From Eubacteriaceae bacterium (GTDB lineage: Bacteria > Bacillota > Clostridia > Eubacteriales > Eubacteriaceae): DNA of 64,000 bases. A program made the translations under genes and the position numbers. The stretch lies in contig JAENWK010000003.1 of NCBI GenBank assembly GCA_016650045.1, positions 22,894-86,893 on the forward strand, written 5' to 3'. This document shows positions 530-45,561 of this stretch, piece by piece. Every line of letters starts with the position of its first letter. Position 1 is the stretch's first letter. The notes under the pieces are model-generated. The model searched no databases. It had not been told where the DNA came from and worked only from the letters and a program-made list of their open reading frames with translations.

Positions 530-826
530 ATGAGATATCCTGCACTAAATGATTTAATTGCAAAAGCTGACAATAAATATTCACTGGTTCTTGCCACGGC
601 AAAACGGGCCAGAGAAATAATTGATGGTGATGAACCTCTTGTAAAAATTAAAATTGATAACCCAGTGACCATTGCCACCAATGAAATTGCAGAAGATATG
701 ATTCACTGTATTTATCATGAAGGTAAACCTCATAAAACGGAAAAGCTCAATGACATTTTAAAGCATGAAGCAGATGTGACATTCGTTGAAGCAGAAATCG
801 AAGACGCACCTGTCATTAAAGGATAG
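530..826 (+). CDS. rpoZ: DNA-directed RNA polymerase omega subunit
   Basis: MRYPALNDLI...YSLVLATAKRAREI, omega signature; located after gmk. Confidence 0.9.
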   Translation: MRYPALNDLIAKADNKYSLVLATAKRAREIIDGDEPLVKIKIDNPVTIATNEIAEDMIHCIYHEGKPHKTEKLNDILKHEADVTFVEAEIEDAPVIKG

Positions 827-839
827 GATTAATAAAGCT

Positions 840-3224
840 TTGAAAATTGCAGAAGTCTTTTTAAACCAGAAAAACAAGCGTATCGATCAAGCCTATGACT
901 ATGTTGTTCCAGAAAATTTGGAGAAGAAAGTTAGAATGGGGATGCGTGTGGTGGTTCCCTTTGGTTTTGGGAACCGGCGGATAGAAGGATTTGTTACCGG
1001 TGTTAAAAAAAACTCGGATTACACCGGGAAAATGAAAGAAGTTCTGGAATGCATAGATAAAGAACCCATTTTACTTAAAGAACAGGTAGAGCTTTGTCTT
1101 TGGATGAAGTCCTATTATTGTTCTTTATTTTATGAAAGCCTTTCTTATTTCACCGCATCGGTTAAAGCAATCCGAGAAATCGAATATCATCAAACCCAGG
1201 AGAAGGATCCGGAGTCGTTAACGGGCAATTGGTTCATAACATACTATTTTAAAAACAAAAATCAAGTGCTGAAAGATAAGAATGTTGAAAAAAAAGATCG
1301 ACACATTTTAGAGGAACTCCTAACCCTTGGGATACTTTATCCCATGAATACCTGGAGAACAGCATCCGATAAGGAAGAATTCTGCTACACCCTCACTGAA
1401 CTTGGGAAAGGCGCTCTTGAAAAAGAAAAAGGTCTTGGAGCTAACCAGCGAAGGCTTCTTGAGTTTCTAAACCAAAAGGATATGACCGATGCTTTGATTA
1501 AAGTATTCCCAGAAAATCTGAAAAGCAGTTTAAAAACCTTAATCAAAAAAGACTATGTTTCAGTCGATCAGATTAAACAACAGTCTTTAGGGAATATAAT
1601 ATTAAAAAGAAAGTCGGCTTGTTTTCCAGAGATTATTCTTGCCGAGAACGAGAAAAAATGGCATAGAGAAACCCAGGATTTAGTCAACGAAAAAAAGGAA
1701 ATTCTTTTTCATGTTTTTGATGGTGCCAGTAAATACCGTTTATTTTTTAAAAGTATTGAAGAAAACCTTAGAAAAGATAAAGGCGTCATTGTTTTATTTC
1801 CGGAAATTAATATTACATTTCAGCGCATGGAAATGTTTTATAAATATTTTGGAGATCAGGTGGGTGTTTTTCATGGGCGACTTACTCAAAAGGAACGCTA
1901 TAACCTTGTTCAAAAAATTCGCAATGGCCAGATTCGCATCATTATTGGTGTCAGAGCAGCCTTGTTTTTACCGATGGAAAACCTTGGGCTAATTATCATT
2001 GATGATGAACATGATCCTTCCTATGTTTCTATGGCAGCCCCAAGATTTCATGCCACCACCATTGCTCGGAAATACTGTGAGCTAACCGGCGCTTCGCTAA
2101 TTCTCGGAGATGATATGCCCCGGATATCGACCTGGTATAAAACAAAAAAAGGCAGAATGAATGTAATAAAAATTGGAGAAGCCCCTGAGGTTCAAAAGCC
2201 CATTGAAGTCATTGATATGCAAAATGAAATTCATCAGGGAAATATGGGTTTTTTTAGTCGACGATTAATTGAATTATTAAAATCAGGTTTGTATCAACAG
2301 AGTTTAAGTGTTCTCTTTATTAATAAAAAAGGATATGCCAACTGTGTTTTTTGCAGAGCATGCGGGCATGTGGAAAAATGTCCTCACTGTGGCATTGCTT
2401 TAAAGTATTTTGAGGGTGGACAACTACTCAATTGTCATTATTGCGGCTACCAAAAAAAAATTCCACTACAGTGCCCAACCTGTGGAAGTGACCAGATAAG
2501 ACATATGGGATTTGGTATTGACCAAGTTGAAGCCCTTCTAAGCAAAGGGTTTCCAGAAGCTCGAGTCCTAAATGTTCAAGGTAATCTTAAACCCACTGAA
2601 ATAAAAAAAATCAACGAGGAATTATTAAAGGGGCAAATTGATATTCTGATTGGTACCCAAATTATTATTAAACACTTTGATTTATCAAAAGCAGGCCTGG
2701 CAGCTGCGCTGCTTATTGACAGTGATCTTAACCAAGGTGATTATCGGTCGGCAGAAAATGTCTATCAAACCTATGGTCGCTTTTTCGGAAAAACCATCAA
2801 GGGAGATACCATTGGGCTCATTCAAACCAATGATCCCGAAAATGACACCATTTATTCCATCGTACATGAAAATTATGAGGATTTTTATGAGGGGGAAATC
2901 AATTACCGAGAGATTATGAAGTACCCACCCATTATGAACATGATTGTCTATGGGGTTTTCCAGGACAACGCCAAAGAGGCTGAAAGTGACGCAATTAAAC
3001 TTTATTTAGCATTAAAGACCAATTTGAAAGAAACCCAGGATTCACAGTACTTTCGAATCTTTAAACCCATCAGTATTGGGGCTATTTCTGGAGGAAATCA
3101 AAAATATCAGATTATCTTGAAAATAAATGATTTAAAAACATTTCGAAAAATAATGTCGGAAATTATTGAATCCGGCACGATTGAAAAATTAAAATCAAAG
3201 GTTTCAATCGAAATTAATCCGTAA
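840..3224 (+). CDS. priA: primosomal protein PriA homologue with degenerate helicase motifs; TTG start at 840 preferred over the tracked start at 786
   Basis: N-terminal AEVFLNQKNKRIDQAYDYVVPENL, zinc-binding CRACGHVEKCPHCG...CHYCGYQKKIPLQCPTCG, PriA-like C-terminus; syntenic before def-fmt. Confidence 0.88.
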   Translation: MKIAEVFLNQKNKRIDQAYDYVVPENLEKKVRMGMRVVVPFGFGNRRIEGFVTGVKKNSDYTGKMKEVLECIDKEPILLKEQVELCLWMKSYYCSLFYESLSYFTASVKAIREIEYHQTQEKDPESLTGNWFITYYFKNKNQVLKDKNVEKKDRHILEELLTLGILYPMNTWRTASDKEEFCYTLTELGKGALEKEKGLGANQRRLLEFLNQKDMTDALIKVFPENLKSSLKTLIKKDYVSVDQIKQQSLGNIILKRKSACFPEIILAENEKKWHRETQDLVNEKKEILFHVFDGASKYRLFFKSIEENLRKDKGVIVLFPEINITFQRMEMFYKYFGDQVGVFHGRLTQKERYNLVQKIRNGQIRIIIGVRAALFLPMENLGLIIIDDEHDPSYVSMAAPRFHATTIARKYCELTGASLILGDDMPRISTWYKTKKGRMNVIKIGEAPEVQKPIEVIDMQNEIHQGNMGFFSRRLIELLKSGLYQQSLSVLFINKKGYANCVFCRACGHVEKCPHCGIALKYFEGGQLLNCHYCGYQKKIPLQCPTCGSDQIRHMGFGIDQVEALLSKGFPEARVLNVQGNLKPTEIKKINEELLKGQIDILIGTQIIIKHFDLSKAGLAAALLIDSDLNQGDYRSAENVYQTYGRFFGKTIKGDTIGLIQTNDPENDTIYSIVHENYEDFYEGEINYREIMKYPPIMNMIVYGVFQDNAKEAESDAIKLYLALKTNLKETQDSQYFRIFKPISIGAISGGNQKYQIILKINDLKTFRKIMSEIIESGTIEKLKSKVSIEINP

Positions 3225-3249: not shown

Positions 3250-3690
3250 ATGGCAGTGAGACAATTACGAATCGATGACGACCCAATTTTAAGAAAAACA
3301 TCCCGGGTGATAGAAGAAATCGATGATAAAATTCAAACGTTAATAGCAGATATGATTGAAACAATGAATGAAGCGGATGGGGTTGGATTGGCAGCTCCCC
3401 AAATCGGCATTTTAAAAAGAATGGTGATTATTGATGTTGGGAATGGACCGGTGACTTTTATAAATCCAACGATCTTAACAAGTGAAGGTGAAGTATCTGA
3501 TGAAGAAGCCTGTTTAAGTCTCCCTGATCGTTCCGGTTTTGTAATACGCCCGCAATCTTTGGTGGTCGAGGCAATGGACAGTGACGGGAATATTTTTCAA
3601 CTTGAATGTTCGGATTTATTGGCACGTGCGGTTTGTCACGAACTGGATCATCTTGATGGCATTTTGTTTATTGATCACGTAGTAAAATGA
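3250..3690 (+). CDS. def: peptide deformylase
   Basis: GVGLAAPQIG, EACLSLP, CHELDHLDGILF motifs. Confidence 0.96.
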   Translation: MAVRQLRIDDDPILRKTSRVIEEIDDKIQTLIADMIETMNEADGVGLAAPQIGILKRMVIIDVGNGPVTFINPTILTSEGEVSDEEACLSLPDRSGFVIRPQSLVVEAMDSDGNIFQLECSDLLARAVCHELDHLDGILFIDHVVK

Positions 3691-4628
3691 AAAAATTAAG
3701 AATTGTTTTTATGGGAACCACCAATTTTGGGGTTCCGGCGCTTGAAAAACTGGTTAATTCCAAATATGAGGTAGTCGCCGTTATCGCTCAGCCGGATCGG
3801 CCGAATAAACGGGGAAAAAAAATCATGGCTTTACCATTAAAGACTAAAGCCATAGAATTGGGACTTAAGGTATTACAACCTGAAAACATAAAGGATCCCG
3901 AATTTGTTAAAAAATTAAAATCTTATAAAGCTGATGTTTTTATTGTGGCTGCTTACGGTCAGATTTTATCAGAGGCAATTCTTTTCATGCCCAAATATGG
4001 TTCATTGAACATTCATGGCTCGTTGCTGCCTAAATACCGGGGAGCAGCACCCATTCAATGGGCCGTTATTAATGGTGAGGAAAAATCAGGGGTTACCATT
4101 ATGCAAATGGATTTAGGAATGGATACCGGAAATATGCTTTCAAAAGCAGAGCTGCCCATTACTGCAGAAACTACCTTTGAAACACTTCACAATGATTTGT
4201 CCTTTCTAGGATCAAATCTTTTATTAAAAACCCTGGATGATTTGGTTTTAGGAAAGCTAAATCCTGTGGTCCAGAATGAGGTGGAGGCAACCTATGCTCC
4301 AAAAATCCAAAAGGATACCGGGCATATTTCATGGGCGTTGACAAGCCACGAAATTTTGGCTCTGATCAATGGCACCGATCCTCAACCAGGTGCCTATTTC
4401 ATCTATGATAATGAAAAAATTAAATGCTTTAAACCGGAAATAGTCCCATGGTTTGGAACAGAAACCCCAGGAACTCTTATTAGAGCTAGCGGACAAGATG
4501 GCTTATGGGTGAAAACAGGGGATGATGCATTAAATATAAGAGAGATCCAGGCCCCCGGTAAAAAAAGAATGGAAGCCAAGGTTTATCTTCGCGGCAATAG
4601 CCTGGAGATGGGAATGCTGCTGAAATAG
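3687..4628 (+). CDS. fmt: methionyl-tRNA formyltransferase
   Basis: RIVFMGTTNFGVPAL, NIHGSLLPKYRGAAPIQWA. Confidence 0.96.
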   Translation: MKKLRIVFMGTTNFGVPALEKLVNSKYEVVAVIAQPDRPNKRGKKIMALPLKTKAIELGLKVLQPENIKDPEFVKKLKSYKADVFIVAAYGQILSEAILFMPKYGSLNIHGSLLPKYRGAAPIQWAVINGEEKSGVTIMQMDLGMDTGNMLSKAELPITAETTFETLHNDLSFLGSNLLLKTLDDLVLGKLNPVVQNEVEATYAPKIQKDTGHISWALTSHEILALINGTDPQPGAYFIYDNEKIKCFKPEIVPWFGTETPGTLIRASGQDGLWVKTGDDALNIREIQAPGKKRMEAKVYLRGNSLEMGMLLK

Positions 4629-14528: not shown

Positions 14529-16568
14529 ATGGATTGGAATGACTCAGTATTAACGCTAAAAGGGGTAGGACCAAAACGTGGGAAAGCACTGGAAGAGCAT
14601 CAGATTAAAACAGTGGGAAACTTGCTGAGTTTTTACCCGAAAAAATATATTGATCGAAACGTCATGGGTTCACCTGATGAATTTACGGAGAATCGAGCTT
14701 TAACTGTTAAAGCTCTTGTCCTGGGTTCTGGTCGACTCCAACGGATTCGTGGTAACCTTTCAATTTTCACTATTCCGCTTTTATTGGATGAAGTTAAAAT
14801 AACCGCTGTTTTTTTCAACCAGCCCTATTTAAAGGGAGTGCTAAAAGAAAATCAGGAATATTATTTTTACGGAAAAGCTGAAAAATACGGTGAAAAATTT
14901 AAATTAATGAACCCCCAGTTCGCACCGGCAAACAACCCTGGGCGGTTTTTTGAGTTAACCCCTGTTTATTCAAAAATCCAGGGAATTCCCAATGATGCCA
15001 TTCGAAAAATGCTGGTCCAGATTTTCAGTGGTGACCCAAAAATAGCGGATGGTCTTCCTGAATCAATTCGAAAAAGTCATAAATTACCAACCATGGTTTC
15101 TGCTCTGGCGGCCATTCATTTTCCGAAAACAATGGCTGAGGTTAGCATTGGAAAAGAGCGCTTGAAATTTAATGAAGCTTTAAAAATAAATATGGGAATC
15201 TTATCAAATGCCGGAGAAAGTAAATTTTCGAACATTTCAATTAATACTTTCAAAGGGATGAAGGCCCTGATTAATAATCTTCCCTATGAACTCACCCAAA
15301 GTCAAAAAACGGTTATTGATGATATTCTTGAGGATTTTAGAAATGGCCATGTGATGAACCGATTAGTTCAGGGAGACGTTGGCTCAGGAAAAACTGTGAT
15401 TGCCATCATCTCTGCTTGTTTAATGGCGCAAAACGGTTATCAAACCGCCTATATGGCTCCTACTGAAATATTAGCCCAGCAGCATGGTCGAAGCTTTAAT
15501 ACCTTATTAAAAGACTCTGGAGTCTCTGTGGAAATCATTACCGGAAGCCTGAAAACCCAGGAGCGAAGAGAAATCTTAGAGCGTGTGGCCAATGGTGAAA
15601 CCTCGGTTATTATTGGTACCCATGCTCTTTTTCAAGACTCAGTGGATTATTATAATTTAGGACTGGTCATCACGGATGAACAGCATCGGTTCGGGGTGAA
15701 ACAACGGGGTCGGCTTTCCCTGAAAGGCAATCAACCCCATACCATGGTGATGAGTGCAACTCCGATTCCACGAACCCTGGCTTTAATTATTTACGGTGAT
15801 TTAGCCGTTTCATATATTGATGAATTACCCAAGGGACGAAAACCCATTAAAACCTATTGCTATGATGAAGCATCCCTTCACAAAATATTTTCTTTTTTAG
15901 AAGTTGAAATGAAAAAGGGGCGTCAGGCCTTTGTGATTTGCCCATTTATTGAGGCTTCTGAGGAAATGGCTGAAGTCAATGACATTGAATCGGTATACAG
16001 TGATATTGAAAAACATTTTTGGGGAAAGTATCAAACAGGATTTCTTCACAGTCGCCTGGGCAACGATGAAAAAGAAGAGATTATTAAAGCCTTTAATTTA
16101 GGAACGATTAAATTGCTGGTTGCCACCAGTATTATTGAAGTGGGAATTGATGTTCCAAACGTTAGTGTTATGGCAATACTCAGTGCCGAGCGTTTTGGAC
16201 TTTCACAGTTGCATCAATTAAGAGGCCGTGTTGGACGAGGTGAACATCAATCCTTTTGTTTCCTGGTTACGAACTCCAAAAGTCCTGAGACTCTGGCCCG
16301 GATGGAAGTTATTGTTAAAAATCGAAGTGGCAAAAAAATAGCTGATGAGGATTACCGATTAAGGGGACCGGGAGATTATTTTGGATTCAAACAGCATGGA
16401 CTTCCAGATTTTGGAGTACTCAATCCTATGGAAGATCTGTTGCTGATTCAAGAAACAAGAGAATTGGCCGAGATGATTTTTCACTCAGTCGAAAAAGAAA
16501 TGATGATGTACCGGGAAAAGGTTCTCAAAACATTTTTCAAAGAAGTAGAAGAAATATCGTTAAATTAG
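14529..16568 (+). CDS. recG: ATP-dependent DNA helicase RecG
   Basis: QGDVGSGKTVIA, DEQHRFGVKQR, HQLRGRVGRG. Confidence 0.96.
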   Translation: MDWNDSVLTLKGVGPKRGKALEEHQIKTVGNLLSFYPKKYIDRNVMGSPDEFTENRALTVKALVLGSGRLQRIRGNLSIFTIPLLLDEVKITAVFFNQPYLKGVLKENQEYYFYGKAEKYGEKFKLMNPQFAPANNPGRFFELTPVYSKIQGIPNDAIRKMLVQIFSGDPKIADGLPESIRKSHKLPTMVSALAAIHFPKTMAEVSIGKERLKFNEALKINMGILSNAGESKFSNISINTFKGMKALINNLPYELTQSQKTVIDDILEDFRNGHVMNRLVQGDVGSGKTVIAIISACLMAQNGYQTAYMAPTEILAQQHGRSFNTLLKDSGVSVEIITGSLKTQERREILERVANGETSVIIGTHALFQDSVDYYNLGLVITDEQHRFGVKQRGRLSLKGNQPHTMVMSATPIPRTLALIIYGDLAVSYIDELPKGRKPIKTYCYDEASLHKIFSFLEVEMKKGRQAFVICPFIEASEEMAEVNDIESVYSDIEKHFWGKYQTGFLHSRLGNDEKEEIIKAFNLGTIKLLVATSIIEVGIDVPNVSVMAILSAERFGLSQLHQLRGRVGRGEHQSFCFLVTNSKSPETLARMEVIVKNRSGKKIADEDYRLRGPGDYFGFKQHGLPDFGVLNPMEDLLLIQETRELAEMIFHSVEKEMMMYREKVLKTFFKEVEEISLN

Positions 16569-22611: not shown

Positions 22612-23151
22612 ATGAGTCACGAAACACATGAACATGGTTGCGGCTGTGGCTGCAATGACGAAAGGATTAAGCCCTTCGATGATTTAACATCGGTACTTAA
22701 AAAATATGCCGATGTCCCGGGAAGTCTGATTACTGTTTTACAGAAAGCCCAGGAGATTTATGGGTTTTTATCATTTGATTTAATGCGTTATATTGCCTTG
22801 GAAACAGATATCAGTATCGCAAAGGTTTATGGCGTGGCCACCTTTTATACCCAATTTCGCTTTGAACCGATCGGAAAATATCTGGTGATGCTATGCCAGG
22901 GAACCGCCTGTCATGTCAATGGGGCCAAGATGATTGAAGAAGTCGTCATGGACGATTTAAATATTAAAGAAGGCGAAACTACGGCGGATGGACTGTTCAC
23001 ATTAAACAATGTCGCCTGTTTAGGCTGCTGCAGTCTTTCCCCGGTGATGATGATTAATGACACGACCTATGGTCAGCTGACCCCGGATAAGGTTAAGAAT
23101 ATCCTGACCGAAATTAAAGAAAAGAATGATTCTCAGGAGGGCCAGAAATGA
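22612..23151 (+). CDS. stnA: NuoE-like [2Fe-2S] subunit, StnA-like
   Basis: CQGTACHVNGA...CLGCCSLSPVMMI NuoE cluster motif; first gene of a NuoE-NuoF-(Fd/GltD/NuoG) cluster. Confidence 0.8.
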   Translation: MSHETHEHGCGCGCNDERIKPFDDLTSVLKKYADVPGSLITVLQKAQEIYGFLSFDLMRYIALETDISIAKVYGVATFYTQFRFEPIGKYLVMLCQGTACHVNGAKMIEEVVMDDLNIKEGETTADGLFTLNNVACLGCCSLSPVMMINDTTYGQLTPDKVKNILTEIKEKNDSQEGQK

Positions 23152-24899
23152 AAATAGTGATTGGAAAAGGAAGCTGCGGCATTGCCGCCGGAGCCAATAA
23201 AATACAAAGTGCCTTTGAAGAAAATCTTTCTTTAGCAGGCCTTGATATCCCGATTGAGACCACCGGATGTATTGGTGCCTGTTACCTTGAACCCATTGTT
23301 GATGTTTTTGATGATGCGGGGAACAAGATCACTTTTGTGAATGTGACAACCGATAACGCCAGAGAAATTGTGGAACAACACATTTTAGAAAAACAAGCCC
23401 TTAAAGGACTTCAGATTACCGACGCCGACATGACCATGATCGGCAAACAAAAACGGATTGTCCTAAAAAACTCCGGGATTATTAATCCGGAGCGGATTGA
23501 AGATTATTTATCAGTGGATGGCTATGAGGCGGCAAAAAAATGTCTGACCGAATTAACCCCGGAAGAGATTATTGAAACCCTTAAAATCGCCGGGCTTAAG
23601 GGCCGGGGCGGTGCCGGCTTTCCAACCTGGTTTAAGTGGAATGCTGCTTATAAATCTCCGGGAGCCGTTAAATATATGGTATGTAATGCTGACGAAGGGG
23701 ATCCCGGGGCCTTCATGGACCGCAGCGTTTTAGAAAGTGATCCTCATGCCCTCATTGAAGGGATGCTTATTGGGGCCAGAGCCATCGGCGCCAACGAAGG
23801 CGTGGTTTATGTTCGAGCCGAATACCCCCTAGCCATTGTCAGGTTGCAGGGCGCCATTAACCAGGCCCGGGAAAGCGGCTATCTGGGGGAAAATATCTTT
23901 AATACCGGATTCGACTTCGATTTGCGGATCAAAGCCGGAGCCGGAGCCTTTGTCTGTGGCGAAGAAACCGCCCTCATTGCCTCTCTGGAAGGGGAACGGG
24001 GCATGCCCCGATTAAAGCCGCCATTTCCAGCCCAGAAAGGCTATTGGAACAAGCCGACCAACATTAACAACGTGGAAACCTTTGCCAACGTACCCTGGAT
24101 TTTCAGAAATGGCGGGGAAGCCTATGCGGCCATCGGCACCAAAGACAGCAAGGGCACCAAGGTCTTCGCCCTGACCGGCAAGATTGCCCATGGCGGTCTG
24201 GTTGAAATTCCGATGGGACTGACGCTTCGGGATGTTATTTATGACATTGGCGGCGGCATCAAAAATAACAAAGCATTTAAAGCCGTGCAGATGGGCGGCC
24301 CTTCCGGGGGATGCGTTCCTGATTCACTGCTGGATACGCTCATCGACTATGGTGAAATTACCAGAACCGGTGCCATTATGGGATCCGGCGGCATGGTGGT
24401 CATGGATGAAACTACCTGTATGGTGGATATGGCCCGTTTCTTTCTGGATTTCACCTGTAAAGAATCCTGTGGAAAATGCACCTATTGCCGGGTTGGAACT
24501 AAAAGAATGCTTGAAATTCTGACCCGCATTACCAAGGGTCAGGGGGTTGACGGCGATATTGAGCTGTTGGAAGAGCTGTGTTATAAAATTAAAGAAGGAT
24601 CTATGTGTGGTTTGGGACAAACAGCGCCAAACCCGATATTAACCACCATTAAATATTTCAGAAACGAATATGAAGACCATATTTATAATAAAAAATGCAC
24701 CGCCAGGAGTTGTAAAGCGCTATTGACCTATGCGATTAATGAAGAAAATTGTATCGGTTGTGGCAGCTGTAAAAAGAAATGCCCGGTGGAAGCCATTGAA
24801 GGTGAAAAGAAAAAAGTTCATAAAATAAACCAGGACCTTTGTATTAAATGCGGGAAATGTTTCACCGTTTGTAAATTCGATGCAGTCCTGGTGGACTAG
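23148..24899 (+). CDS. stnB: NuoF-like FMN/[4Fe-4S] subunit with N-terminal thioredoxin-like [2Fe-2S] and C-terminal 2x[4Fe-4S] domains, StnB/HydB-like
   Basis: GRGGAGFPTWFKW, CNADEGDPGAFMDR, ESCGKCTYCRVGTKRM, CIGCGSCKKKCP...CIKCGKCFTVC. Confidence 0.82.
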   Translation: MKIVIGKGSCGIAAGANKIQSAFEENLSLAGLDIPIETTGCIGACYLEPIVDVFDDAGNKITFVNVTTDNAREIVEQHILEKQALKGLQITDADMTMIGKQKRIVLKNSGIINPERIEDYLSVDGYEAAKKCLTELTPEEIIETLKIAGLKGRGGAGFPTWFKWNAAYKSPGAVKYMVCNADEGDPGAFMDRSVLESDPHALIEGMLIGARAIGANEGVVYVRAEYPLAIVRLQGAINQARESGYLGENIFNTGFDFDLRIKAGAGAFVCGEETALIASLEGERGMPRLKPPFPAQKGYWNKPTNINNVETFANVPWIFRNGGEAYAAIGTKDSKGTKVFALTGKIAHGGLVEIPMGLTLRDVIYDIGGGIKNNKAFKAVQMGGPSGGCVPDSLLDTLIDYGEITRTGAIMGSGGMVVMDETTCMVDMARFFLDFTCKESCGKCTYCRVGTKRMLEILTRITKGQGVDGDIELLEELCYKIKEGSMCGLGQTAPNPILTTIKYFRNEYEDHIYNKKCTARSCKALLTYAINEENCIGCGSCKKKCPVEAIEGEKKKVHKINQDLCIKCGKCFTVCKFDAVLVD

Positions 24900-24913: not shown

Positions 24914-27900
24914 ATGAAAAAATTTAAATTAAATATAGATGGTAAAGAAGTCACCGGCTTTCCGGGACAAACGATTTTAGAAATTGCCCGGGAAAATAAC
25001 ATCGATATTCCCACACTTTGTTATGATGAACGGCTGGAAATTTTTGGATCCTGCGGACTTTGTATGGTCGAGGTGGAAGGCATTCCCAAACTGTTCAAAG
25101 CCTGTGCCACAGAAATTTCGAAAAATATGGTCGTTAAAACAAAAACCGATCGTGTGATCGAATCACGAAAAACAAATCTGGAGCTGCTGCTGTCCAAACA
25201 TATCGGAGATTGTGTTGCCCCTTGTAAGCTTGCCTGTCCGGGAACAACCGACTGCCAGGGTTATGTGGGCCTTATTGCCAATGGGGAGTTTAAAGAAGCC
25301 CTGAAGCTGATTAAAGAACAGCTGCCGCTGCCGGGATGTATCGGCCGGGTTTGCCCGCATCCCTGTGAAACAGCCTGTCGCCGGGGAGAAGTGGATGAAC
25401 CCATTGCCATTGCCTGGCTCAAACGTTTTGCCGGTGATTTTGATTTGACCCATGACCTGTTCTTACCGGAAATTAAAGAAGCCACCGGCAAATCCATCGG
25501 GATTATCGGTGGCGGCCCAGGCGGTCTCACTGCTGCCTACTACCTGATCCAGTCCGGCCATGACGTCATCATTTATGAAGCGATGCCGAAAATGGGGGGA
25601 ATGTTGCGCTATGGTATTCCCGAATACCGTTTGCCCAAAGGGATTGTAGATGAAGAAGTGGGACTCATAGAAGAAATGGGCGTTGTTTTTAAAAACAATG
25701 TCCGCGTTGGGAAAGATATCGCTTTTGACACCATCCGCGAAAACCACGATGCGGTTTTTGTGGCCCTGGGGGCGTGGACAAGCTCGGGACTGCGCTGTGA
25801 CGGTATCGACGCCAAAAACGTCATTGGCGGCATTGAACTGCTGCAACAGGTGGCCAATAATGAACCCATTGTGTTAGGTGAGAAAGTCGCCATTGTCGGT
25901 GGTGGGAATACCGCTATGGATGCCTGTCGCACGGCCCTGCGACTGGGCGCAAAAGAAGTCACGAATATCTACAGGCGAACCATTGCCGAAATGCCTGCGG
26001 AACAAATTGAAATCACTGAAGCCCAGGAAGAAGGCGTTGTCTTTAAAAACCTGGCCAGCCCCATTGAAGTCATTAAAGGGGCAGACGGACAGATTGTTCA
26101 AATGCGTCTCCAAAAAATGGCTTTGGGGGAACCGGATGCCAGCGGACGTCGCCGTCCGGTACCCATTAAAGGGGAAGAAGAAACCATTGCTGTGGATACC
26201 CTGATTCTGGCCATTGGCCAGGGGATTAATCCCGAGGGACTGACGGCATTGACCCTGACTAAATTTAATACTGTGGCTGCCGATGAACAAACCTTCAGAA
26301 CCAGTTTAGAAGGGGTTTTCGCCGCCGGAGATTGTATTAACGATGGCGCGTCCATTGCCATTAAAGCCATTGGGGATGCCAAAAAAGCAGTTGGCTTTAT
26401 TGAAGGCTATTTAAAAGGCGAAGACATTCAGTATCACGAACCGTACTACGTGACCAGGGAATCGGCAGATCCCGATTATCTGGAAAGCATTAAAAAGAAT
26501 AAACGACCGACAATGAGTCACCTAACCCCGAATGAGAGAAATGACAATTTTCTGGAAGTGGTGGAAGGGTTTGATCCAATCCAGGCGGTGGCCGAAGCCA
26601 ACCGTTGTCTGGAGTGCGGGTGTCAGGATTATTTTGAGTGCAAACTCATTAAAAATGCCAATGCCTATGATGTGAAACCGGCCCGGTTTGCCGGAGCCAA
26701 TCCCGAGAAAAAAATCCAGGAGGATCATCCTTTTGTGATAAGGGACAACAATAAGTGCATTACCTGTGGCCTGTGCGTCCGGGTTTGTGATGAAATTGTG
26801 GGCGCCTCTGCCCTGGGTTTGGTGGATCGTGGATTTGAAACCGAAATCGAGCCGGCTTTAAAACAACCACTGGCCGAAACCGGATGTATCAGCTGCGGTT
26901 TATGTATCAGTGTTTGTCCCACTGGCGCCTTAAAAGAAGGTTTAATCGGAATAAAAACCGTGCCAATGAATACCAGCAAAACCGAAAGCACCTGTGGCTA
27001 CTGTTCCGCCGGTTGCCAGACCGTCATTGAATCCATGGGGGACACCATCATCAAAGCGGTTCCTCAGTCAAACCAACCCCGGCTTAATCAGGGCGTGATG
27101 TGCGGCCGCGGCCGTTTTGGAACGAATCTGGTCCAATGGGGAGATCGGCTGACCACACCACTGATTCGCAATAAACAGGGTAAACTTGAAGAAGCCAGCT
27201 GGTATGACGCCTTTGTCACCATTGCTAAAAAAGCTCAGAGCATTGCCGCCCGCTATGGTGCGGAGACCTTAAAAATGGGCATTTCACCTAAATATACCAA
27301 CGAAGAAATTTATGCCATGACCCAGCTTGCCAAAGGTCTTCGGGCTGAAACTTTTAGTTTCAGCAACGTGGTTAAGGGCGAAGCGAACGTTCTTACCGGT
27401 GACTATATGGTTCAGGAGATGGATGCGTTGATTTCAGCTGACGTCATTCTTGTATTGGGATTCCTCCCGGTGAATAACCCTATTGTGAAATACAAACTGG
27501 TTCAGGCTTCAAAAAACGGGGCTGAAATCTTTGTGATTAATCACATTGAAAGTGGTTTTGACAAGTTTGGGGATGAATTCATTACCGATTGTGAGGATTT
27601 AGAATTTTTGGGAGAAATCACAAAATACGTTCTTGAAAATGGGGAACTTAATCCCCAGGCCAACAACAGTGAGAGCCTAAAAGCTTCGCTGAAAGACTTT
27701 GATATTTGCCCAGAGGCTGAATTTATCGGTGCCGGATTAGTCAAAGCCAAAAACCCGGTGATTGTTCTGGGCGATAAATATGTAACCATGGAAACAGCTA
27801 CCCTGGCCGGTAATATTATGGGTCTTTTAGGTAAAGTAGAAGGCAGCCGACAGGGAATTTTCAGAGTGGCGGTAAAGAATAACAGTGTTGGCTTAAATGC

Positions 27901-28420
27901 ACTGGGTGTCATTTTGACAGATGCCGTCCTTGACAATGCCAAAGGATTACTCCTCTTTGGGGAAGATCCTAATGCCGACTTAGATGTTTATGAATTTCTG
28001 ATGGTCCAGGATACTCATTTAACCCAGGCTTGTGCCAGAGCCGATGTGGTACTGCCGGCATTAGCCTTCCCAGAAGTGAATGGTACCTTTGTCAATACTG
28101 AAGGTCGCCTCTTAGAGGTAAAAAAAGCCGTGGAAAGTCCCGTTGACTTTACGAATATAGAAATGATTCAGGCTATGGCAGAAATTCTTTCCAGAGATTT
28201 GGGATCTCCAAACCCTGAAACAATTTTAAAAACCATTGGTCAAGTGACTCCGAGTTTTAAAAATGTCGGAGTTGGAGAAACCCTGAGGGTAAACAATGCC
28301 GGAAGAACTACTGTTAATCTTAAACCCTATGTTGACGGAAGGCTCTTTACCGAGATTCCATATACCGATTACCTCATGAATGAAATTCAGGGGGAATTAA
28401 ATAAGGTGACGAAGCAATAA
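24914..28420 (+). CDS. stnC: multidomain oxidoreductase: [2Fe-2S] ferredoxin - GltD/NfnB-like FAD/NADPH domain - 2x[4Fe-4S] - NuoG/FdhA-like domain, StnC-like
   Basis: CYDERLEIFGSCGLCMVEV; CPGTTDCQGYV...IGRVCPHPCETACRRGEVDEPIAI; GIIGGGPGGLTAAY; CITCGLCVRVC...CISCGLCISVCP; CGYCSAGC...CGRGRFG. Confidence 0.82.
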   Translation: MKKFKLNIDGKEVTGFPGQTILEIARENNIDIPTLCYDERLEIFGSCGLCMVEVEGIPKLFKACATEISKNMVVKTKTDRVIESRKTNLELLLSKHIGDCVAPCKLACPGTTDCQGYVGLIANGEFKEALKLIKEQLPLPGCIGRVCPHPCETACRRGEVDEPIAIAWLKRFAGDFDLTHDLFLPEIKEATGKSIGIIGGGPGGLTAAYYLIQSGHDVIIYEAMPKMGGMLRYGIPEYRLPKGIVDEEVGLIEEMGVVFKNNVRVGKDIAFDTIRENHDAVFVALGAWTSSGLRCDGIDAKNVIGGIELLQQVANNEPIVLGEKVAIVGGGNTAMDACRTALRLGAKEVTNIYRRTIAEMPAEQIEITEAQEEGVVFKNLASPIEVIKGADGQIVQMRLQKMALGEPDASGRRRPVPIKGEEETIAVDTLILAIGQGINPEGLTALTLTKFNTVAADEQTFRTSLEGVFAAGDCINDGASIAIKAIGDAKKAVGFIEGYLKGEDIQYHEPYYVTRESADPDYLESIKKNKRPTMSHLTPNERNDNFLEVVEGFDPIQAVAEANRCLECGCQDYFECKLIKNANAYDVKPARFAGANPEKKIQEDHPFVIRDNNKCITCGLCVRVCDEIVGASALGLVDRGFETEIEPALKQPLAETGCISCGLCISVCPTGALKEGLIGIKTVPMNTSKTESTCGYCSAGCQTVIESMGDTIIKAVPQSNQPRLNQGVMCGRGRFGTNLVQWGDRLTTPLIRNKQGKLEEASWYDAFVTIAKKAQSIAARYGAETLKMGISPKYTNEEIYAMTQLAKGLRAETFSFSNVVKGEANVLTGDYMVQEMDALISADVILVLGFLPVNNPIVKYKLVQASKNGAEIFVINHIESGFDKFGDEFITDCEDLEFLGEITKYVLENGELNPQANNSESLKASLKDFDICPEAEFIGAGLVKAKNPVIVLGDKYVTMETATLAGNIMGLLGKVEGSRQGIFRVAVKNNSVGLNALGVILTDAVLDNAKGLLLFGEDPNADLDVYEFLMVQDTHLTQACARADVVLPALAFPEVNGTFVNTEGRLLEVKKAVESPVDFTNIEMIQAMAEILSRDLGSPNPETILKTIGQVTPSFKNVGVGETLRVNNAGRTTVNLKPYVDGRLFTEIPYTDYLMNEIQGELNKVTKQ

Positions 28421-44146: not shown

Positions 44147-45445
44147 TTAGGGATGCTTTACGATCCCAATAAACAGAATGGCACCGGTTTGATTTTCTTG
44201 GATTACAAACATAAATGGACGGTCACAATTAAATACCTTGGGTTCATCCACGGGGATACTGGTTGTGCTCATTTCAACCACAGTAACCGCGGCGGCTTCG
44301 GTTCCTTTTTCATCAACGGTAATGGAGGTGTTTTGAAATAAATCACTAATATACACATTTCCAGCAGATGTTTCAATCATGTTTGAGAAATCAGCGTTTT
44401 CACTTGAAAAGGCTGTTGCCATACCTGCTAAAGAAAGGGGATCTTTGAGCTGGTTGCTTGCTTCATATTGAAATTTTGGGAAATCCATTATTAAACGGGA
44501 GGAATTTTTTTTTGCACCTTCTATTTTGGAAACAATATCATCAAAGGAAGCGTCATTAATAAATGAAGCGATATCCTGCTTTGGCAACAACACATACATA
44601 GTGCTTCCGCCATAATAAGGCAATCCGGCAATTTGGGTTGATGCATCTTCAAAGTATTCAAAACTATTTTCCTGGTGCATCATATCCACGTTTACAGTTT
44701 CGGATGTACTGACATTAAAGGGTTTTTGTGTGGTTTGAGAAGCGTCGAATATTTTAATCCAATTGCCTTTAAAATAAACGGTGTTCATGAGAAAAGCAAT
44801 GGTATCGGGATTGATTTGTGACAGGGTATCTTTTAATAAATGGTTTGTCTTTTCTTCAATCCATTGATTGATTTGATCCACTGTTTTCGGGTCATTAAAA
44901 TTTGTTCGATAGACTTTAGCATCGTAGGATGCTTTTAGGGTATTGACAAAATCCTGCTTCGGACTGATATCGTCTTTAAACCAAAAGGAATTGGCAATAC
45001 TAAGAGTCATCAATGGAGATGTATCATTGCTGTCTTTTTTTTCTTCTGAAGGGAGCTGATTGAAATAATTTAACAGCGTGTTAAATCGCGTATTTATGCC
45101 TGGATCAGAATCTAGCATAGCGGTAAAAATGCCGTTTCTTGTTTCTCCATTAGCACCATTTTGAACCATGGCCTGAGCGAATGAAAGACTCATCGGGGAG
45201 AGTAGGGTATTCGCTGCTGTTGAATTTCTAGACATATCTTGTATAAGACTGTAACCTGCCAGATTAGATCCTTTAATACTCTTTGCAATATCATCACTCT
45301 TGACAGCGTCAGAAACGTTTTTACTCTGGGTATCAAAACTGACTGTTGGATTAACCAAACCTTTAGAGGTTGTTTTTTGAAATGCACTGCAACCGCTTAA
45401 TACCAGTATGAAGGATAATAAAATTGTAAATAGTTTAAATTTCAT
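44147..45445 (-). CDS. serpin family lipoprotein, inhibitory-type hinge
   Basis: Lipobox FILVLSGC; serpin hinge VDEKGTEAAAVTVV and FNCDRPFMFVIQENQTGAILFIGIV signature; aaggtgg RBS before ATG 45445. Confidence 0.93.
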   Translation of the reverse strand: MKFKLFTILLSFILVLSGCSAFQKTTSKGLVNPTVSFDTQSKNVSDAVKSDDIAKSIKGSNLAGYSLIQDMSRNSTAANTLLSPMSLSFAQAMVQNGANGETRNGIFTAMLDSDPGINTRFNTLLNYFNQLPSEEKKDSNDTSPLMTLSIANSFWFKDDISPKQDFVNTLKASYDAKVYRTNFNDPKTVDQINQWIEEKTNHLLKDTLSQINPDTIAFLMNTVYFKGNWIKIFDASQTTQKPFNVSTSETVNVDMMHQENSFEYFEDASTQIAGLPYYGGSTMYVLLPKQDIASFINDASFDDIVSKIEGAKKNSSRLIMDFPKFQYEASNQLKDPLSLAGMATAFSSENADFSNMIETSAGNVYISDLFQNTSITVDEKGTEAAAVTVVEMSTTSIPVDEPKVFNCDRPFMFVIQENQTGAILFIGIVKHP

Positions 45446-45561
45446 ATCAACCACCTTTTTTAATTTAATTATATCTTTTCAGATCAGGTTTTGTCAAAAA
45501 AAAATAAATTTTAAAATTCACTTTTTTTTCATTATATATTTTTTATCCTTAACCCGGATTT

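Follow-up and report, generated by a model that had tools for sequence, protein, structure and literature searches.

The 64,000-nucleotide stretch of DNA analysed here (the window) comes from a 2.23-Mb draft genome in 217 contigs, whose nearest named relative is Acetobacterium bakii (74% identity in PriA), and carries a priA gene whose helicase motifs have degenerated. The question that this locus raises is whether such a protein can still act in replication restart, and in what capacity. An earlier note on this DNA had read altered motifs I, II, III and VI beside an intact zinc-binding region and a retained overall fold, had suggested a PriA that recognises forks and loads the primosome without ATP-driven unwinding, and had proposed comparison with relatives, a search for a second priA and a dN/dS estimate as checks.

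The priA open reading frame is full-length and without interruption (Table 1). Its frame is already open from a TTG at position 786, but the TTG at position 840 is supported as the start because it is there that the homologues in the genus start, with (V/L)KIAEVFLNQ. The protein scores 396 bits against TIGR00595, the NCBIfam model for PriA (cut-off 230), and 80.3 bits against PF17764, the N-terminal 3'-DNA-binding domain (3'BD; cut-off 22.7), which was detected in 39 of the 40 family genomes; the full-length PRK05580 models also match it strongly, yet under their very high cut-offs. A guanylate-kinase-like gene and rpoZ lie upstream, and def, fmt and rsmB-like genes lie downstream, in the usual order priA-def-fmt. 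A motif scan found priA as a single copy at the conserved def/fmt locus, although the scan did not pick up def at all loci, and no second PriA was found in the window genome. The curated score, 3'BD, eight cysteines, fold and single copy together identify the protein as a PriA orthologue. The window protein and two others (L021 and L042) score above the TIGR00595 cut-off and are named 'replication restart helicase PriA' despite the lost motor, a name that over-calls activity for whole families.

Table 1. Positions of priA, its domains and motifs, and its neighbours in the window
Feature	Position	Strand	Residues	Remarks
rpoZ (RNA polymerase omega)	530..826	+		upstream neighbour of priA; assigned by eye
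priA CDS	840..3224	+		TTG start, 794 aa, predicted pseudohelicase PriA; TIGR00595 and PDB matches
3'-DNA-binding domain (PF17764)	855..1145	+	6-102	Y19, D20, G42, K66 retained
Degenerate motif I / Walker A	1701..1748	+	288-303	ILFHVFDGASKYRLFF; alignment
Altered motif II / Walker B	1992..2015	+	385-392	IIIDDEHD; alignment
Post-motif II region	2001..2075	+	388-412	P401, R402, F403 kept
Degenerate motif III	2100..2123	+	421-428	ILGDDMPR; alignment
Cysteine-rich zinc region (PF18319)	2352..2489	+	505-550	8/8 Cys
Motif V region	2646..2678	+	603-613	GT kept
Degenerate motif VI	2763..2816	+	642-659	YQTYGRFFGKTIKGDTIG; arginine fingers lost
def (peptide deformylase)	3250..3690	+		downstream neighbour of priA
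fmt	3687-4628			after def

The motifs were placed by aligning the window PriA with 57 relatives, and all four readings of the earlier note proved correct, as did its statements on the zinc region and the fold. In motif I, HVFDGASKYRLF stands opposite the canonical HGVTGSGKTEVY, with VFDGASKY replacing the Walker A residues GVTGSGKT; the resulting HVFDGASKY does not fit the pattern GxxxxGK[ST] of an active helicase. A nominal Walker lysine persists by position (K298, in ASKY) without the glycine-rich loop or the Thr. Motif II is the least altered: IIDDEHD stands opposite IIDEEHE, D388, E390 and H391 being kept and E389 replaced by D, so that DEEH has undergone only a conservative change to DDEH; in other genera this motif is lost. 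Motif III reads LGDDMPR opposite LGSATPS (GSATPS to GDDMPR) and motif VI reads RFFGKTIKG opposite QVAGRAGRG (FGKTIKG for GRAGRG), and neither retains the sequence of an active helicase.

A sequencing or assembly artefact, such as a frameshift, or motifs misplaced elsewhere in the protein might produce such a picture, and the draft state of the genome, though nothing else, speaks for it. The window residues, however, align exactly opposite the canonical motifs, the frame is unbroken, and identical residues recur in independently sequenced isolates and closed genomes, the same state being common to all 40 family genomes. Furthermore, the helicase motifs of RecG, encoded at 14529-16568 of the window, are intact, so that poor local sequence quality does not account for the motif loss in PriA. 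An artefact is thus refuted, and we give it a negligible probability.

Apart from these motifs, the protein closely follows canonical PriA. All eight cysteines of the cysteine-rich region (CRR) are present. An AlphaFold2 model made with 20 sequences (pLDDT 86.7, pTM 0.85) found PriA chains as all of its best nine PDB matches (among them 6dgd, TMt 0.80, and 4nl4), and the protein, as modelled, keeps the PriA fold. The pocket for the 3' end in E. coli PriA consists of F16, D17, G37 and K61, and the equivalents in the window protein (Table 1) are conserved across the family. The loop that wedges into the fork presumably corresponds to the post-motif II region, as placed by alignment; residue 403 within it is aromatic in nearly all family members. 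In E. coli PriA, the nascent leading-strand 3' end sits in the 3'BD, a pore formed with the zinc region threads the lagging-strand single-stranded DNA, and the corresponding loop of lobe 1 wedges into the junction (PMC10175261). With canonical PriA (TIGR00595; E. coli/Klebsiella structures 4nl4, 6dgd and 8fak) the protein shares its domain order, its fold, the zinc region, the pocket residues of the 3'BD and the genomic position beside def-fmt, whereas motifs I, III and VI are gone and it does not read as an active SF2 helicase.

The loss extends over the whole family. Motor-less PriA was found in all 40 genomes of the family (f1) examined, which represent nine genera; in two of the genomes only PriA fragments lacking motif I are present. 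Among the named members are A. bakii, A. paludosum, A. tundrae, A. fimetarium, A. dehalogenans and A. wieringae, as well as Eubacterium callanderi, E. barkeri, E. aggregans and Pseudoramibacter alactolyticus. GK[ST] is absent from every member that has the motif I region, and the eight zinc cysteines are present in all 40. In contrast, the motifs are intact in 18 of 18 PriAs from four sister families (f2-f5) of the same order. A tree calculated without the motif columns splits the motor-less from the intact PriAs on one branch with a support of 100, the family PriAs having long branches, and a single loss in the ancestor of the family would explain this most simply.

SF2 helicases use motifs I, II and VI for ATP, whereas motifs Ia, Ib, IV and V contact nucleic acid. 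Retention was scored at 139 positions that are conserved in at least 90% of intact PriAs: the family retains 13% of these in motif I, 18% in motif VI and 32% in motif III, compared with 80% in the 3'BD, 77% in the CRR (100% for the eight cysteines) and 82% in the C-terminal domain. No family member keeps the Thr of GKT or the second arginine of motif VI, and the PE pair of motif Ia and the GT pair of motif V are mostly retained. With the ATP motifs lost and the DNA-binding, zinc and C-terminal positions kept, the ATP side has therefore been lost selectively.

By a counting method applied to congeneric species pairs with dS under 2.5, dN/dS is approximately 0.13 for the whole of priA, approximately 0.09 for helicase lobe 1 and 0.10 for the zinc region, with values between species from 0.08 to 0.31. 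The family priA is under purifying selection, and strong constraint on the dead lobes agrees with a role for them as a scaffold that grips DNA. Helicase motifs are thus lost while PriA domains are retained under selection, as in the PriA of Deinococcus radiodurans. The long family branches might instead indicate a decaying pseudogene or relic, an unused PriA that is disappearing, but the frame is open in all genomes with a full-length copy, and both the dN/dS values and the invariant cysteines speak against decay. The selection data refute this explanation, and we regard it as extremely improbable.

We consider it highly probable that the single orthologous PriA of this Acetobacterium-group bacterium is a pseudohelicase, an ATP-independent fork-recognition scaffold that hands forks over to DnaD-DnaI. 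The loss of ATPase and helicase activity we infer from sequence, and the fork binding and hand-over are suggested by analogy with known PriAs. The 3'BD, the zinc region and the C-terminal domain are kept, as are the folded helicase lobes, which would serve to grip DNA. PriA would recognise stalled forks and D-loops through the nascent leading-strand 3' end, the lagging strand being threaded between the lobes and the zinc region, and ATP hydrolysis would no longer be coupled to unwinding; the protein would then recruit DnaD and the ATP-using loader DnaI, which would place the replicative helicase. The role that the earlier note had suggested is, in this conditional form, supported by the comparisons made here.

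The closest known parallel is D. radiodurans PriA, in which motifs I and II are degraded (the Walker A lysine is an arginine and motif II is poor), and which has no measurable ATPase or unwinding activity but still binds single-stranded DNA, forks and DnaB (PMC4504706, Lopper et al. 2015). The Eubacteriaceae protein is similar in its degenerate motif I, its altered motif II and its proposed role; it differs in having other sequence in place of the entire P-loop and of motifs III and VI, and in belonging to a different phylum with a different primosome (DnaD-DnaI). Its loss is apparently independent of that in Deinococcus-Thermus, as judged from synteny and the intact sister families rather than from Deinococcus sequences. 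The engineered E. coli variants K230R and K230A are motor-dead and are reported still to assemble primosomes and load DnaB (PMC4504706 citing Zavitz and Marians 1992; PMC10175261), and K230A is the form used in DnaB loading assays (PMC10175261). Those are laboratory point mutations, whereas the Eubacteriaceae loss is natural, ancient and extensive.

Against a wholly ATP-independent scaffold, the Walker lysine and D388, E390 and H391 survive in Acetobacterium, and weak nucleotide binding may remain. PriA might then not unwind, and ATP binding or very slow hydrolysis might toggle it between fork-bound and released states, as would suit a Walker position that is K in 19 and R in 11 of 38 family members and motif II acidic residues that are largely kept (D388 in 76%, E390 in 63%). 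However, all or almost all members lack the glycine-rich P-loop with its Thr and the arginines of motif VI, and several genera have lost motif II as well. We therefore think such a nucleotide switch unlikely.

DnaD and an adjoining DnaI/DnaC-type loader are encoded in all well-sampled family genomes, and the loader P-loop is intact where it was read (seven family loci and one sister-family locus). Since RecG is intact as well, PriA alone among the restart genes examined has lost its ATP motifs. The family evolves fast, and the protein could have a different task: restart might proceed mainly by another helicase-driven route, with PriA repurposed, for example for fork protection or SSB-linked scaffolding. 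The motor loss, the fast divergence and the presence of other fork helicases (RecG, PcrA and Rep/UvrD-like) would agree with this, but the family retains both the residues for fork recognition and the DnaD-DnaI loader genes, and a PriA-DnaD contact is known in Staphylococcus aureus (PMC4909229). Such repurposing seems to us quite improbable. PcrA, for which only presence in the family was checked, was also considered as a compensating partner helicase; it is an ordinary enzyme, and explains nothing by itself.

The scaffold reading gains a wider setting from other Bacillota. When 399 genomes of the phylum were scored with an intact PriA query, nearly all scored high; among 80 survey sequences read, 79 have intact core motifs where covered and one (L168) does not. 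Of the 12 full-length PriAs in the family of the latter, f108, 11 are motor-less and one is intact (L178/G249), with one genus intact and two dead, and the weakest scorers of the larger survey include motor-less PriAs in f149 (two genomes), f153 and f184. All eight cysteines are kept in the motor-less PriAs of these four families. The sequences concerned are L175-L186 (f108; genus L178 intact), L196 (f184), L197 (f153), and L199 and L200 (f149). L086, a metagenome-assembled genome of a CPR bacterium (Candidatus Paceibacterota Prado155), also encodes a PriA, of 675 aa, in which motifs I, II, III and VI are degenerate. With the intact query, no PriA was found in the near-complete genomes G122 (f45) and G375, which may reflect true absence or a gap.

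The best tree requires four changes, and its strongly supported branches force at least two, a lower bound for a sample in which only the weak scorers and a selection of sequences were read. That every motor-less PriA of the phylum goes back to a single origin is rejected (AU test, p=0.0007), though the test is weakened by long branches and the group tested was named after the tree was seen. Lineages of both kinds, motor-less and intact, were found to have def beside priA, which suggests vertical inheritance. The motor-less condition of PriA is likely to be a recurrent and stable state in Bacillota, reached in no fewer than two lineages and probably in four or five (Eubacteriaceae, f108, f149, f153 and f184), as well as in the Paceibacterota genome, with the fork-recognition and zinc parts kept. 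If so, helicase activity would be an optional accessory of restart and not its core, and DnaD-DnaI would do all of the ATP-dependent loading.

Motor-less PriA as such is already known in Deinococcus-Thermus. The actinobacterial PriA is probably degenerate as well. No report of a motor-less PriA in Bacillota was found in the open-access literature, and a literature search on PriA in Acetobacterium gave nothing relevant. What is new here is a family-wide and apparently independent loss, its greater extent, its DnaD-DnaI setting and its recurrence in four other Bacillota families. ATPase-dead priA alleles of E. coli are viable, and since this was found it has been a question whether restart depends on the helicase activity of PriA. 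Natural motor-less PriAs under strong selection provide a comparative system for what the motor does and what replaces it, and f108, with both intact and dead genera, allows a direct comparison within one family.

Elsewhere in the window, positions 24914-28420 encode a protein of 1168 aa that by eye is a GltD-like flavin oxidoreductase fused to a formate-dehydrogenase-like molybdopterin part; a NuoF/HytB-like subunit (23148-24899) adjoins it, and the two possibly belong to an electron-bifurcating complex. Positions 44147-45454 of the reverse strand encode a lipoprotein that by eye resembles a serpin (serine protease inhibitor), a type uncommon in bacteria.
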